The notes beneath the pieces were generated by a model. That model saw nothing but the letters and a program-made list of their open reading frames with translations, was not told where the DNA came from and did not search any database. Below, one piece after another: positions 30,373-35,850 of a DNA stretch of 64,000 nucleotides; within the stretch, counting starts at the first letter, position 1, and every line of letters starts with the position of its first letter. A program made the position numbers and the translations under genes. Source of the DNA: Paucibacter sp. TC2R-5 (GTDB taxonomy: Bacteria > Pseudomonadota > Gammaproteobacteria > Burkholderiales > Burkholderiaceae_C); contig NZ_JAJIRQ010000002.1 in the NCBI RefSeq assembly GCF_025717605.1, positions 391,884 through 455,883 on the forward strand, in the 5' to 3' direction.

Positions 30373-30430
30373 TTCGCGCTGCTCGGCGCCGCCAATCCGC
30401 TATGCTGATCCAGTGGAGAGGAATGCGCCG

Positions 30431-33163
30431 ATGGATCTTTTTTTAAGCGACGAAGAATACGCCAAGCTCGACGCGGCGGTCGTGAGCGCAGGCGCTCGGG
30501 CCGGCATCGCGGAGCGCGTTGCTTTGGCCTGGCATTTGCGTGAGCGCGACAGCGGCCGGGCACGCCGCTTGGCCGAGCAGGCCCTGGCTGAATTGTCTGA
30601 ATCGAACGATCAGCGAAGTGCCCGGCTGCGCCTGCGCCTGCAGCTGCTGCTGGCCGAATGTCACTGGCTGTTTGCCCAGCTAGACTTGGCCGAAGCACAG
30701 GCCCGCACCATCATTCCGGCCGCACGGACGCTGTCCGATGTCTTGATCTTGGCCGATGCCCACCTGCTGCTGGCCCATATCGCCGGCGATCGGGGCGACC
30801 TCCCGGGGCGCTGCGCCGAGCTGGATGCGACGGCCGCCATGGCGGTAGGCAGCGGCGACGACTTCCGCATGGAGTTCGCCCAGCTCTGCATCGCGCACGC
30901 CGCGCTACGGCAAAACATCGCCTCCGCCTCTGCGCAATGGGGCGCACATGTGCGCGATCTGCTGGCCAAGCCGGTGCACCCGGCCCTGCATGTGATGTGC
31001 AATGAGTTCCTGACCTTCGAAGCGCTGCAAACGTCTGACTTTGCGACCGTGTTTCGCGTCTGCAGTCACACCGTCAGCGCGCTCAAGCGGGCCGGCATGG
31101 TGCGCCAGATTGCGCTGTCGATGACGATGCTGGGCGTTGCTTTCGCCAACCTCAACGACGACACCCAGGCGCTGGAATGGATGCAACGCAGCCTGGAACT
31201 GGCACGCCCGACCGGCTGGCCATTGGTGCTGGGCAATGCGCTGCTGCAGGTCAGCAGCGTGCAGCGCTCGCTGGGCCAGTTTGAAGCGGCGCAAGCCGCC
31301 CTGGACGAAGCCCTGCCCTTGCTCGCGCCGCTGCAGAGCTCGCGCACCTATGCGCTGGGCCTGGTCTATATGGCCGAGCTGCAGCGCGACCTGAAGCAGC
31401 CCGCTGCCGCGCTGGAGGCTGCGCGGCAGTTTGATGCGCCCTCGGCCGCGCCGCGCCCGCTGGATTTGCGTCTGAATATGATGGCGGTGGAGGCGCTGTC
31501 CTTGTCCAAGCTGGGCCGGCCGCATGAGGCTTTGGTCGCCGCCCATGCGGCGCTGCAGCTGGTCCGGGAGGCCGACCTGCCCTTGCATCTGTCGGATGCG
31601 CTGCAAACCTTGGCCACGCTGTACAGCCAGCATGACTTGCCGGCGCCGCCGGACATGCAAGCAGCCAGCCCCAGCCTGCACTATTTGCTGCTGTCTTTGG
31701 CGGCTTTTTCGCCCGAGCAACAGTCCAGCGTGCCGCCCAGCGTGTTTGACGCGATCGCGGCCGAATACGCCAAGCTCGGCGACCACGCGCAAGCCTATGC
31801 CTATGCTCAAAAAGCGCGCGCCGCCAGCGAAGCCGTGCACAAACAAGACGTCAGCAAACGCCTGATCTTGCTGGAAACAAAGTTCCACACCGAGCGCGGT
31901 GAGTTGCTCAGTCAGACCAGCGCCACGCTGGAACGGCTGAGCCAGATCGGCCAAGAAATCACCGGCCACCTGCAAGAGCAGGCGGTCTACGACACGCTGG
32001 ACCACAATGTGCACGGGCTCTTGCGGGCCAATCATTTCAGCGTCTATTTGCTCGACGCGGCGGGCGAGAACCTGCTCTTGGCCTATGGTGCGGAGGATGG
32101 GCGGCGGCTGGCGAGCTTCAGCGCGCCGATGTCTCACCCGACGGCCAATATCGTTCGCTGCGCTGCGCAGCGCCGCGAGGTCTTTATCGAGGTCGATCCC
32201 TCAAGCGGCAAGAACAATCCGATTCCGGGCACGCTGCAGACGCTCAGCGCGATGTTCATGCCCTTGATTTCGGGTGAGCAGTTGCTCGGCGTGATGTCTA
32301 TCCAATCGACGCAAGCCCATGCCTATGCCGACCGCGAGCGCTTGATCTTCCGCAGCCTGGCGGCCTATGGCGCGATCGCGATCGATAACGCGCAAAACTA
32401 TCGGCGCCTGGAGGCCACGCTGGTCAGCCTGCATCAAGCGCAGGCTGAGGTGCTGGACAAGAACCAGGAGCTGGAACGCGCTTACCAGTCGCTCAAGGAC
32501 ATCAGCCTCACCGACCCGCTGACCGGCCTGCGCAACCGGCGTTTCCTGGAACAAAACCTGGCAGGCGAAATCAGCCAATGCCTGCGCCACTACGAAGACT
32601 GGCGGCGCCACCCCGAACAGCCCGCGCCGCAGGATGCCGACCTGATCTTTTTGCTGGTCGACATCGACCACTTCAAGCGCGTCAATGACGACTGGGGCCA
32701 TCCGGCAGGCGACGCGGTGCTGGTGCAGATGCGCGCACGCCTGCAACAGGCCTGCCGCGACTCGGACTATCTGGTGCGCTGGGGCGGCGAGGAGTTCTTG
32801 GTGGTGGCAAGGGCGACCAACGCCAGTGCAGCCCCGGACTTCGCCGAACGCATACGCGCGGCGGTGGCGCAGCAGCCCTTCGACATCGAGGCCGCCGCGC
32901 GCTTAGCACTGACATGCTCGGTCGGCTTTGCGACCCTGCCCTTTGTTCCCTCGCAGCCCGAACGGCTGGATTGGCAGCAAGTGGTCGGCCTGGCGGATCA
33001 GGCGCTTTATATGGCCAAGCGCAGCGGCCGCAACACCTGGGTGGGTTTAAGCGCCACGGCGCAAACCCCGACCGTGGGCGATATCAGCGAACTTTTGCTG
33101 TCACCGCAGGCCAGTGCTAACGCCGGATGGCTGCGGATCGAATCGATGCGGCCCATGGCCTGA
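30431..33163 (+). CDS. TPR-GAF diguanylate cyclase
   Basis: This 910-residue protein has TPR-like helical repeats (about 10-475), a coiled coil, a GAF domain (about 510-660), a second short coiled coil, and a GGDEF domain (about 690-860). The active motif is GGEEF at 785-789. The product-inhibition I-site RDSD ends five residues before it, so feedback control by cyclic di-GMP is expected. It makes cyclic di-GMP from GTP in the cytoplasm. The ATG at 30431 has GGAGAGG upstream and is preferred over a GTG six codons earlier. The input half resembles the kinase at 22181. Confidence 0.93.
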   Translation: MDLFLSDEEYAKLDAAVVSAGARAGIAERVALAWHLRERDSGRARRLAEQALAELSESNDQRSARLRLRLQLLLAECHWLFAQLDLAEAQARTIIPAARTLSDVLILADAHLLLAHIAGDRGDLPGRCAELDATAAMAVGSGDDFRMEFAQLCIAHAALRQNIASASAQWGAHVRDLLAKPVHPALHVMCNEFLTFEALQTSDFATVFRVCSHTVSALKRAGMVRQIALSMTMLGVAFANLNDDTQALEWMQRSLELARPTGWPLVLGNALLQVSSVQRSLGQFEAAQAALDEALPLLAPLQSSRTYALGLVYMAELQRDLKQPAAALEAARQFDAPSAAPRPLDLRLNMMAVEALSLSKLGRPHEALVAAHAALQLVREADLPLHLSDALQTLATLYSQHDLPAPPDMQAASPSLHYLLLSLAAFSPEQQSSVPPSVFDAIAAEYAKLGDHAQAYAYAQKARAASEAVHKQDVSKRLILLETKFHTERGELLSQTSATLERLSQIGQEITGHLQEQAVYDTLDHNVHGLLRANHFSVYLLDAAGENLLLAYGAEDGRRLASFSAPMSHPTANIVRCAAQRREVFIEVDPSSGKNNPIPGTLQTLSAMFMPLISGEQLLGVMSIQSTQAHAYADRERLIFRSLAAYGAIAIDNAQNYRRLEATLVSLHQAQAEVLDKNQELERAYQSLKDISLTDPLTGLRNRRFLEQNLAGEISQCLRHYEDWRRHPEQPAPQDADLIFLLVDIDHFKRVNDDWGHPAGDAVLVQMRARLQQACRDSDYLVRWGGEEFLVVARATNASAAPDFAERIRAAVAQQPFDIEAAARLALTCSVGFATLPFVPSQPERLDWQQVVGLADQALYMAKRSGRNTWVGLSATAQTPTVGDISELLLSPQASANAGWLRIESMRPMA

Positions 33164-33173
33164 GCCGCCACGA

Positions 33174-33206
33174 AAACAGCCGCCAGGATTGGCGGCTTGT
33201 TTTTTT
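33174..33206 (+). terminator. Rho-independent terminator after the GGDEF gene
   Basis: AGCCGCC and GGCGGCT form a seven-pair stem with loop AGGATT, followed by TGTTTTTTT. It ends the GGDEF transcript before the convergent metalloprotease gene. Confidence 0.85.
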
Positions 33207-33238: not shown

Positions 33239-34924
33239 TTACTTGAGCTTCAAGGGCGCCTTACCGCTGATGCTGTACTGGCCGATAGAGCCGTAATTGC
33301 TGTAACCCGTGGTCTTGGGGTCGCCCTTGCCGGCACCTTTGACAAAGAGGTAGTAGGTGCCTGCCGTGGCCAGCTTGGCGGAGATGTTGGCGTCCAACTT
33401 GTCCAGGGTGTTCGCCGTGGCCACGGTCTTGCCGCTGGCGTCCCTCAACTCCAATGCCACGTCCAGGTTGCCGCTCCAGTTGGAGGGTGCTACGGTCAAG
33501 CTGATGGCGCCGGCACCGGCGACAAAGCTGAACACATCGACATCCGTGGGCGTTTCGATCACGCCGGTGCGGCTGAGGTTGGCCAGGCCGTTGGCTTGGC
33601 TCAGCAACATGGCGCTGGCCGTGGCCGTGGTGTTGCCGTGATCATCGACGCGCGCCGGCAGGCCTTGCTTCTTCATCACCGCATAGGCGTCTTCGGTATT
33701 GGTCGCGCCGGCATACTCGCCCTTGGCCCATTGCGTGAGGTTTTTGTAATAGCTCACGCCCATGATCGGCGCCCAGCCAGTGTCACCGTCACCGGCGCCA
33801 CCGTAATAGGTTTGGGCGCTGGTGCTTTGGTGATGCAGGCCCAGGGTGTGGCCCAACTCATGCGACAGGCATTCGGCGATCGGCTTTTCGGCATTGGCCA
33901 GATTGTTCTGGAAGCAAAACGCCGGTGCCGGACTGGCCTTGAAGGCCGCGAAAGAATTCAGATAGGCATAGCCACCCGAAGCGCTGGTTTCACTGGTGAT
34001 GAGAATGGTCACGCCGGTCTTGCCCACAACGCTGCTGGGCGCCTCGGTGGTGATGTCGACATCGAAGCTGGCATAGTCTTCCGCGACCCGCAACCAGATC
34101 TTCTGGATCATCGCCTGCTCGACCGCGCTGAAGCTGCGCGGCAGCTTGTCCAGATCGAAGGCGGGCTTGGCGCCCTCGCCCTTGAAGTTCAGATAGATGA
34201 TGCGCGAAGCGCTGCTGCGCGAATGCAGCGCGAAGGTCTGGTCAAGCGGGAACGGTGCGCCGCCGGTCGAAGGCACGCCGATGGTGGCCTTGTCTCCCGC
34301 CTCGGTGACGCCCATATTCGCGTCGCTGACATGATGGGTGTGAGCGTCCTTGAGGCTGACATCGGCCTTGCCCGCGCCAGCGTCAATGAACAAGAGGCGG
34401 CCCCTGGTGTCAACGAACACGGTGTTGTCGCTGCGCAGCAGTGTGGTCAATTCTTCGGGGCTCTTGCCGTACCAGGCTGCAACGGCTGGCAGATTGCCAC
34501 CGAGCCCATCAATCGCCTGCTGCCCATTGCTCAGCGCCGCCAGCTTGATACGTCCAAAGGGCGCGTTCTCGGTCGAGCCTTCGCTGTTGGCGGGGATGAA
34601 ATCGGCCGGCATCTCGAAACCCTTGATCGCCTGCGGCGCCGGCGCGGCCAGCGCAGCGGTTTGAACGTCTGGGGCCGGTGCTGCAGGAGCGGCGTCAGCC
34701 TTGCCACTTGCGAGCGGCAGCGCGATGGCGGGGCTCGATGGTGCTGCGGCCTGAGCCAGCTGTACGGCCTCTCTTTGCGGCTCAGCCACCACGCTCAAGG
34801 TAACACCACCGACCAAGGCGATCACCGCGGTGCCTGTCAAGGTACGCGCCCACAGAGGCGCTTTGCGCAGCTGCACCTGCAGGGATTTGAAGGCGTTTGG
34901 CTGGCGAGTAGGCTGCTGAGACAT
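33239..34924 (-). CDS. Secreted zinc metalloprotease with C-terminal PPC domain
   Basis: This 561-residue protein has an N-terminal hydrophobic signal or anchor (about 26-47). An Ala/Pro-rich region (about 50-110) and a propeptide-like segment precede a metzincin-type catalytic domain. The zinc motif is HELGHTLGLHH at 355-365, with the later Met-turn-like WAPIMGVSYYKNLTQW. A pre-peptidase C-terminal (PPC) domain (about 420-550) follows and is usually removed after export. The gene has a c-di-GMP-I riboswitch in its leader about 150 bases upstream. Its expression is therefore tied to cyclic di-GMP; whether the nucleotide turns it on or off is not settled by sequence. Confidence 0.9.
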   Translation of the reverse strand: MSQQPTRQPNAFKSLQVQLRKAPLWARTLTGTAVIALVGGVTLSVVAEPQREAVQLAQAAAPSSPAIALPLASGKADAAPAAPAPDVQTAALAAPAPQAIKGFEMPADFIPANSEGSTENAPFGRIKLAALSNGQQAIDGLGGNLPAVAAWYGKSPEELTTLLRSDNTVFVDTRGRLLFIDAGAGKADVSLKDAHTHHVSDANMGVTEAGDKATIGVPSTGGAPFPLDQTFALHSRSSASRIIYLNFKGEGAKPAFDLDKLPRSFSAVEQAMIQKIWLRVAEDYASFDVDITTEAPSSVVGKTGVTILITSETSASGGYAYLNSFAAFKASPAPAFCFQNNLANAEKPIAECLSHELGHTLGLHHQSTSAQTYYGGAGDGDTGWAPIMGVSYYKNLTQWAKGEYAGATNTEDAYAVMKKQGLPARVDDHGNTTATASAMLLSQANGLANLSRTGVIETPTDVDVFSFVAGAGAISLTVAPSNWSGNLDVALELRDASGKTVATANTLDKLDANISAKLATAGTYYLFVKGAGKGDPKTTGYSNYGSIGQYSISGKAPLKLK

Positions 34925-35035
34925 GAGGTGAGCGCTCCGGCTTTGAGGGTAGAACTCAAGGCACAGCTTGGAGCGGCGAGGTCAGTCAAAGCGGGGAGAT
35001 CAGCAGTATTGCTGCCAGCACGGTGGAGTGGTGCT

Positions 35036-35080
35036 CAAGCCCCTCGCTGGGAGTGCAGGCTTGGTGCCCGCTTTGGCTTG
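35036..35080 (-). promoter_or_regulatory. Possible expression platform of the riboswitch
   Basis: On the minus strand, CAAGCC occurs in the 3' strand of the aptamer (35080-35075) and again just downstream (35063-35058). Either copy could pair with GGCTTG at 35041-35036. Mutually exclusive pairing is the usual logic of an expression platform, but there is no T-run, so a translational or Rho-linked mechanism is more likely than intrinsic termination. Confidence 0.35.
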
Positions 35081-35165
35081 GCAACCCCGCTGTCTTGGCT
35101 GATGAATAGCTGTAGACCGGAAGCTTTGCGACCCCGGCTTTCGCTCGGGTGTGCCCTGAATGACT
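35073..35165 (-). ncRNA. c-di-GMP-I riboswitch (GEMM motif)
   Basis: On the minus strand the leader matches the GEMM-I aptamer in order. CAGGGCACACC comes first, then the stem-loop CCCGAGC-GAAA-GCCGGG with its GAAA tetraloop. The invariant GTCGCAAAGC core follows, then CCGGTCTA, whose GTCT pairs with AGAC across a second arm with inner GCT/AGC pairs, and AGCGGGGTTGCC closes it. Compared with the well-studied Vibrio Vc2 RNA, the core blocks CAGGGCA-ACC, GACGCAAAGC, CCGGCCTA and AGCGGGGTTACC align with only a few changes. It lies about 150 bases before the metalloprotease start and should bind cyclic di-GMP. Confidence 0.85.
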
Positions 35166-35296
35166 GCAGTTTAGGGGGCGCATCGACGCCTGGATAGCGC
35201 TATTTGCGGGCAAGCTCTACAGCGCCGGGGCTGATGTGATGAATTGCTCAAAAGCCCTGGCCCTCGCGCCACGCCGGCAGGCGTTTTTGCTGGCCT

Positions 35297-35310
35297 ATAG
35301 TGCTGCCTAT
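35297..35310 (+). promoter_or_regulatory. OxyR-like half-site before dps
   Basis: ATAG-N6-CTAT lies about 40 bases upstream of the dps start and overlaps a possible -10 hexamer TATAGT. The OxyR consensus half-site is ATAG-N7-CTAT, so the spacing is one base short. OxyR is encoded in this window at 21264 and Dps is a common OxyR target. Confidence 0.35.
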
Positions 35311-35349
35311 TGCCTAAGACCTTGTACCAACCACCGAGAGGAGCCTCCT

Positions 35350-35850
35350 ATGGCCAAGAAATCTGCCGCCAAGTCTGATGCCATCAATATCGGCATCAGT
35401 GCCAAGGACCGGGAAGCCATTGCCCTGGGCCTGTCCAAGCTGCTGGCCGACACCTACACCCTCTACCTGACCACGCACAACTTCCATTGGAACGTGACCG
35501 GGCCTATGTTCAACACCCTGCATCAGATGTTCATGCTGCAGTACACCGAGCTGTGGAACGCGGTCGACCCGATCGCCGAGCGCATCCGCTCCCTCGGCCA
35601 TGTGGCGCCCGGCTCCTACGCGCAGTTCGCCGCCTTGAGCTCGCTGCCCGACGCACCGACCAAGCCGCCGAAGGCGCTGGAGATGGTGCGCATCTTGGTA
35701 GAGGGCCATGAAGGCGTGGCGCGCACCGCTCGCGCCTTGTTCGCCGTCGTTGGCGAAGCTTCGGACGAGCCGACCGCCGACCTGCTGACTCAGCGACTCA
35801 CCATTCACGAACAAACAGCCTGGATGCTCAGGAGTCTGTTGGAAGACTGA
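35350..35850 (+). CDS. dps: Dps-family ferritin-like DNA-protection protein
   Basis: Dps forms a 12-subunit shell that oxidises and stores iron with hydrogen peroxide and shields DNA in stress. The 166-residue protein has a Lys/Ala-rich N-terminal tail and the ferroxidase segment [19 protein letters not shown], followed by [26 protein letters not shown] lies before the ATG. An OxyR-like half-site lies in the 5' region, and the protein's last 13 codons recur downstream as a partial copy. Confidence 0.95.
35810..35850 (+). repeat. 3' end of dps, first copy of a 41-base direct repeat
   Basis: The last 13 codons and stop of dps (protein [12 protein letters not shown]-stop). The same 41-base segment recurs 68 bases downstream with three changes, all at third or first-synonymous positions (GCC/GCG, TTG/CTG, GAA/GAG). 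Confidence 0.8.

Follow-up and report, generated by a model that had tools for sequence, protein, structure and literature searches.

The leader of a predicted secreted-metalloprotease gene in Paucibacter sp. TC2R-5 raises the question of whether its RNA senses cyclic di-GMP, whether the protease gene is what it controls, and in which direction it would act. The window, by which we mean the whole 64,000-nucleotide stretch of DNA that was analysed, had been described in an earlier note as carrying a c-di-GMP-I riboswitch ahead of this gene. We conclude, with a probability of roughly three in four, that the protease mRNA carries in its 5' leader a c-di-GMP-I riboswitch through which synthesis of the protease is tied to cyclic di-GMP.

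We scanned the whole window against Rfam, and at gathering thresholds the only match was RF01051 (c-di-GMP-I), at 35165-35077 on the minus strand, with a score of 66.2 bits against a threshold of 35 and an E value of 9.4e-11. The cmscan alignment covers model positions 1-87 of 87, and the aptamer is therefore full length. This is the covariance-model check that the earlier note had proposed, and its outcome upholds both the class and the orientation given there. The sequence blocks it had named are all found on the minus strand in the order it gave: CAGGGCACACC, a GAAA-capped stem, GTCGCAAAGC, CCGGTCTA and AGCGGGGTTGCC. Its span of 35073-35165 has the aptamer start right, while the end at 35073 lies 4 nt past the end of the model. 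The features at the aptamer and around the gene are as follows.

35077 to 35165, minus strand: c-di-GMP-I (GEMM-I) aptamer with a C.U internal-loop variant beside the pocket (Rfam RF01051)
35155, minus strand: G equivalent to G20 of Vc2, which is A in the cGAMP-type GEMM-Ib (cmscan alignment)
33239 to 34924, minus strand: metzincin-like zinc metalloprotease of 561 aa with an N-terminal hydrophobic segment and a C-terminal PPC domain (open reading frame)
30413 to 33163, plus strand: TPR-GAF-GGDEF protein, probable diguanylate cyclase with RWGGEEF (open reading frame; Pfam GGDEF 136.7 bits)
33178 to 33206, no strand given: terminator-like hairpin with a T run between the ends of the protease and GGDEF genes (direct sequence reading)

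The conserved core of the aptamer is intact, comprising the GGC..ACC strand, the GAAA tetraloop, CGCAAAG and AGCGGGG..GCC, and the model alignment contains two non-standard pairs. Model position 11 is a G in the cmscan alignment, and we take it, by the Vc2 numbering, to be G20 of Vc2. The substitution G20A goes with cGAMP binding, according to the accessible part of PMC6274999; the aptamer has G rather than the A of GEMM-Ib at this position. It adds one more ordinary member to a known riboswitch class and, judged by its sequence, would bind cyclic di-GMP.

Comparison with other aptamers places its one variant feature. Positions 24 and 43 are A.A in 135 of the 175 parsed aptamers, C.U in 36, A.G in 3 and U.A in 1, with no A.U or C.A mixtures among the 175; the present aptamer is C.U. 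Such a clean exchange of A.A for C.U beside the ligand pocket offers a natural test of the role of this loop in binding. Across 196 collected aptamers, the present one included, 167 have G at position 20, 10 have C and 4 have A; the other 15 were not parsed. The aptamers with C (L024, L035, L042, L043, L044, L055, L056, L058, L256 and L257) could be a variant class, and of the 7 that remain once redundancy is removed, 6 stand before S8-like genes. The A that marks cGAMP-type members occurs in four Burkholderiales loci (L053, L054, L217 and L278).

The protease ATG lies at 34924, on the same strand as the aptamer and 152 nt past its end. Metzincins are recognized by HEXXHXXGXXH followed by a downstream Met-turn methionine. 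The zinc motif here reads HELGHTLGLHH, and neither the motif nor a later methionine, Met388, varies among the 12 homologues aligned. The PPC domain scores 28.3 bits against a Pfam cut-off of 25.9, and the Reprolysin_5 match stays below its cut-off (23 against 27 bits). A sequence search for solved structural relatives gave no confident match (best E 0.66), and one scan of viral contigs gave no viral relatives; the nearest named relative is from Paucibacter sp. B2R-40, at 82% identity. A hydrophobic segment begins after about 28 residues, which suggests that the protein is probably exported or membrane-anchored. The earlier description of a PPC-domain metalloprotease downstream of the aptamer is thus borne out. 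The same note had placed a GGDEF synthase gene beside it; the adjacency is real, but the two genes are on opposite strands, tail to tail, with the terminator-like hairpin between them. As a conserved unit the GGDEF neighbour was rejected: of 14 other protease loci, a motif search found a GGDEF ORF only in that of the sister species (L089), where it has the matching position, and none in the 13 others, several of which have little downstream DNA. On the other side, a ferritin-like (Dps-type) gene at 35266-35850 (plus strand) diverges from the riboswitch transcript, and the intergenic region is common to both.

To assign a target we rely on the company that the aptamer keeps. Among homologues of at least about 48% identity it lies upstream of the protease gene in 23 of the 33 that are assessable, the present gene included. 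The homologues came from protein searches, and scans of their loci found the aptamer in 6 of 15, 12 of 14, 1 of 13 and 5 of 14; 12 of the loci in the 13-locus scan are distant, and the last 14-locus scan repeats 9 of the first, repeats being merged. Three pairs (L061/L089, L098/L141 and L094/L137) were each counted once, as coordinates and scores identify them as the same genes. Outside the count, as not assessable, are L095, L107, L109, L143/L159, L144 and L112, the last a 63-residue match. The ten homologues without an aptamer are L068, L069, L071-L074, L078-L080 and L100. The aptamer-bearing protease loci are labelled Paucibacter, Rhizobacter, Undibacterium, Janthinobacterium and others, and the B2R-40 orthologue keeps its aptamer at 68.0 bits. 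Beside the homologues of 38-41% identity (L102, L104, L105 and L108) and beside eight paralogues of about 30% identity, no aptamer was found. Undibacterium fentianense has two tandem protease paralogues with one riboswitch copy apiece (L096:2239-6641). When eight genomes of the Undibacterium/Janthinobacterium group (G702-G709) were searched whole, five had a single class I aptamer, always before the protease, two (G702 and G706) had two each and one (G705) had none.

Since the pairing of aptamer and protease recurs in related bacteria, the switch very likely controls the protease, as the earlier note had held. We are accordingly close to certain that the riboswitch belongs to this gene, the regulation itself being predicted. 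In five loci (L067, L070, L075, L076 and L077) the sequence GGTAAG (GGAAAG in L077), some 40 nt 5' of the aptamer, keeps a constant spacing to a TA(G/C)CAT-like box that lies downstream of it and immediately precedes the aptamer; this may be a promoter or activator site. Separately, paired copies of the Betaproteobacteria toxic small RNA occur upstream of the protease locus at L097:1747-2122 and L100:3904-4756.

The protease is one of several targets of this class. Four class I aptamers of this genome score above threshold, and they lie before two curlin genes, a chemoreceptor gene with Cache domains and the protease gene. The two curlin riboswitches, near-identical duplicates scoring 82-83 bits, stand in tandem, and each is followed by a curlin-repeat gene of its own (L005:5378-6857, contig C23); one gene of the pair was tested against Pfam. 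For the RNA searches we used 250 genomes from the family of the window, 18 from the genus and 245 from the family to which G704 belongs, and retrieved a further 40 and 60 loci, broadly the better-scoring matches. At 152 non-redundant loci from these searches we assigned the gene after the aptamer to a class by phmmer comparison with seeds, and in 73 of these broadly better-scoring matches it is of protease type: 34 S8-like, 35 S53-like and 4 metalloproteases, the window's included. The remainder comprise 9 chemoreceptor, 1 curlin, 2 HlyD, 2 of another lipoprotein and 65 unclassified genes. The S8 assignment was confirmed by Pfam in three seeds. A profile of six members of the S53-like group matches kumamolisin structures (E 2.5e-21), and Pfam searches with three of its members gave no match. 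One genome (G251) has eight class I aptamers in total, five of them near-identical (L055-L059) and preceding genes that share one N-terminus, L055 being of the HlyD family by Pfam.

About half of the loci examined in these two Burkholderiales families therefore precede one of three protease types, which points to RNA-based control of exported proteolysis by cyclic di-GMP. Among the open-PMC matches listed, judged by title and start of abstract, none concerns class I c-di-GMP riboswitches of Burkholderiales, and none, in the same scope, class I riboswitches before S8 or S53 proteases; this absence from the literature is weakly supported, subscription journals being mostly outside the scope of the search. 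The interest of the locus lies in the protease regulon and in a candidate expression platform rather than in the aptamer itself.

That candidate platform consists of four elements in and beyond the aptamer.

35150 to 35161, minus strand: aptamer 5' strand AUUCAGGGCACA, with pocket and P1b residues, the proposed anti-aptamer target (duplex with 34954-34965)
34954 to 34965, minus strand: candidate anti-aptamer element UGUGCCUUGAGU (complementarity to the aptamer 5' strand)
34933 to 34975, minus strand: candidate SD-hiding hairpin with CGCUCC/GGAGCG arms and an inner UUGAG/CUCAA stem, -14.3 kcal/mol (local fold)
34935 to 34938, minus strand: Shine-Dalgarno-like GGAG (sequence)

The duplex between the first two has 12 contiguous pairs and a predicted energy of -18.0 kcal/mol, equalled by 3 of 1000 dinucleotide shuffles. 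The element sits in the 5' arm of the hairpin, of which the opposite arm holds GGAG, and in folding the hairpin appears once the aptamer helices are enforced. In a Rhizobacter MAG (L090) a comparable element stands at the matching place (4 of 1000 shuffles equal), and in Paucibacter sp. B2R-40 (L061) a weaker one, with two 5-pair blocks (128 of 1000). Ranked among all aptamer windows by pairing with the leader, the proposed target comes 3rd of 76 in the present locus, 3rd of 73 in L090 and 19th of 73 in L061, and other windows thus pair with the leader equally well or better. Enforcing the aptamer lowers the predicted accessibility of the Shine-Dalgarno (SD) sequence from 0.21 to 0.00 here and slightly in L061 (0.35 to 0.28) and L090 (0.41 to 0.25), the aptamer pairings for the latter two having been adapted by hand from the present alignment. 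Taken over its whole length, the leader has a stability no greater than that of shuffled sequences (z -1.09). Attenuation through an intrinsic terminator was set aside, a consensus scan of the gene's strand over 34800-35450 having found none.

These elements suggest a translational OFF switch. At low cyclic di-GMP, UGUGCCUUGAGU would pair with the aptamer 5' strand, breaking the aptamer and keeping the element away from the hairpin that covers the SD, and the protease would be made. At high cyclic di-GMP, the aptamer strand would be locked in the binding fold and the element freed into the SD hairpin, and translation would drop. The likely purpose would be to withhold an exported protease while cyclic di-GMP favours sessile life. 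We consider this route evenly poised between right and wrong, an estimate that was lowered because of the ranking of aptamer windows and the folds of four orthologous leaders, described below.

Those four leaders, from Oxalobacteraceae, have nearly unchanged SD accessibility when the aptamer is enforced (0.25/0.26, 0.18/0.21, 0.25/0.25 and 0.22/0.19). A hairpin with CCUUUGU/ACAAAGG arms and loops of 4-15 nt contains the SD core in 14 protease leaders of Oxalobacteraceae. The outer pair of this hairpin is U-A in 7, C-G in 4, U.G in 1 and a mismatch in 2, and an inner U-A is replaced by C-G in one paralogue; against shuffles the hairpins give z of -0.1 to -3.2. A block of the form GCGU-n-GYCC stands before the hairpin, and its last eight bases best fit the aptamer strand GGGCAAAC (mean 6.43 of 8, against 4.67 for the next-best aptamer position). 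This fit was reached by 0 of 400 column permutations, and by 8 of 120 when YCC, which is shared with the SD hairpin, was held fixed. Leader-aptamer duplexes in the 14 leaders were mostly no better than shuffles, and a duplex search allowing long bulges found no common site among them. A closing helix between the 5' flank and the leader, also considered for Oxalobacteraceae, was dropped as inconsistent on inspection by eye.

We extended the motif comparison to a larger set of leaders, in which 209 records from the RNA searches and the protease loci were merged to 196, of which 173 are non-redundant with adequate flanks; 19 loci were excluded as cut, short or from Methylomonas. Of the 173 leaders, 36 contain the motif GCGU-n(0-3)-GYCCU, compared with 1 of as many coding controls and 2 of as many reverse complements, in counts that ignore descent and gene family. 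Among leaders of A.A-type aptamers it is found in 35 of 90 having GGGC and in 0 of 39 without GGGC, a dependence that is confounded with gene family, and GCGUGCC is commoner with C.U-type leaders (9 of 36, against 3 of 129). By gene, 15 of the 36 motif leaders belong to metalloproteases and 14 to S53-like proteases. Where a start with an SD core could be assigned (109 of 173 leaders), the SD is paired in short folds of 23 of 28 motif leaders and 60 of 81 others. In several S53-like leaders the GCGU block alternatively pairs, in folds, with the start codon region. The two curlin leaders of the present genome carry a motif similar to that of the protease leaders.

A broader rule, by which the leader of any GEMM-I riboswitch would be complementary to the 5' strand of its aptamer, was rejected, since that strand is not special when all aptamer windows are compared. 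Over 159 leaders this complementarity exceeds that of the coding control weakly (t -2.0), with one other window equal; the mean difference is -0.87 to -0.97 kcal/mol over the first 150 nt of the leader and mostly -0.27 to -0.28 in later bins, but -0.69 at 350-400. One might propose that the c-di-GMP-I riboswitches of Burkholderiales make up a protease regulon and have in common a translational OFF platform, in which GCGU-n-GYCCU (GUGCC with C.U) pairs either with AGGGC or in the SD hairpin. We hold this generalization to be doubtful, the more so because the four orthologous leaders do not switch in folding. If it were true, the pocket strand AGGGC would mimic a Shine-Dalgarno sequence, and the ligand would decide which of the two is covered.

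Other readings of the locus differ in what the aptamer does once it has formed. Binding might instead expose the SD, so that protease is made at high cyclic di-GMP. Vc1 of Vibrio cholerae acts positively in this sense, lower cyclic di-GMP giving a lower reporter signal in the accessible part of PMC4744006, and the two curlin genes of the present genome, which would be expected to be ON at high cyclic di-GMP, combine aptamers with the similar leader motif; repression of curlin by cyclic di-GMP being unexpected, these leaders also count against the OFF platform. Such an ON switch is nevertheless rather unlikely here, as the predicted SD accessibility drops on enforcing the aptamer in the present leader, L061 and L090, and the class I switches of C. 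difficile, that before ZmpI among them, are described as OFF in general, with a single exception (PMC6200980, accessible part). Control might also fall on transcription, through Rho, or on RNA stability, the leader hairpins being incidental. That would suit a leader that is not unusually stable as a whole, SD pairing in motif leaders that barely exceeds that in others, and the four orthologous leaders whose folds show no switch. Against it stand the paired changes in the Oxalobacteraceae SD hairpin, the extended pairing that the leader element could form with the aptamer strand, both in the present locus and in L090, and the lack of a terminator-like site on the gene's strand in the consensus scan of 34800-35450, and we judge it unlikely.

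Two further readings question the aptamer itself. The family includes cGAMP-sensing members, and the C.U beside the pocket occupies a place where most collected aptamers have A.A, so another cyclic dinucleotide such as 3',3'-cGAMP could be the ligand; yet position 20 is G, whereas A is the mark of cGAMP binding in the accessible part of PMC6274999, and the adjacent gene encodes a GGDEF protein with a GGEEF site, which makes this very improbable. The aptamer might also be a degenerate remnant that no longer has a function, as could be argued from its 66 bits, against 82-83 for the curlin copies in the same genome, and from its two non-standard pairs. Its core blocks are intact, and the orthologous gene has kept its aptamer both in B2R-40, at 68.0 bits, and in other genera; these points speak against decay, and we give this reading the least credence of all. 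A working c-di-GMP-I riboswitch in the protease leader remains our preferred reading.

Set beside known systems, the present aptamer resembles Vc2 of Vibrio cholerae, the type example of RF01051, in all 87 positions, the GAAA tetraloop, the CGCAAAG junction, G20 and its place in a 5' leader. It differs from that type in its 3x3 internal loop, which has C.U rather than A.A at the mid-position, as do 36 of the 175 collected aptamers, and in a leader where the consensus scan found no intrinsic terminator. The GEMM-Ib 3',3'-cGAMP riboswitches are a related class with the same GEMM-I fold, and have A at position 20 where the present aptamer has G.

The earlier note had pointed to cyclic di-GMP control of such proteases in other bacteria, and this holds for Clostridioides difficile, where the class I riboswitch Cdi-1-12 goes with measured repression of the ZmpI metalloprotease (PMC6200980, accessible part). 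By analogy, and as far as that part of the source goes, this switch is the nearest functional parallel. Both place a class I aptamer before a zinc metalloprotease, and the OFF response predicted here would match; the negative effect was measured there, whereas the translational OFF route proposed here is predicted. The parallel drawn here is one of function, and the family match of the present protease is Reprolysin_5, below cut-off.

Among proteobacterial class I switches it joins Vc1, before gbpA, and Vc2, before VC1722, and like Vc1 it has no apparent intrinsic terminator (PMC4744006, accessible part). In the same part of that source no anti-Shine-Dalgarno is apparent for Vc1, and the authors call the mechanisms of Vc1 and Vc2 unclear. 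Unlike these, the present leader offers a candidate anti-SD hairpin together with a candidate anti-aptamer element. Leaders of this type thus supply a concrete, mutable model of an expression platform where the class I platforms of Vibrio are called unclear.
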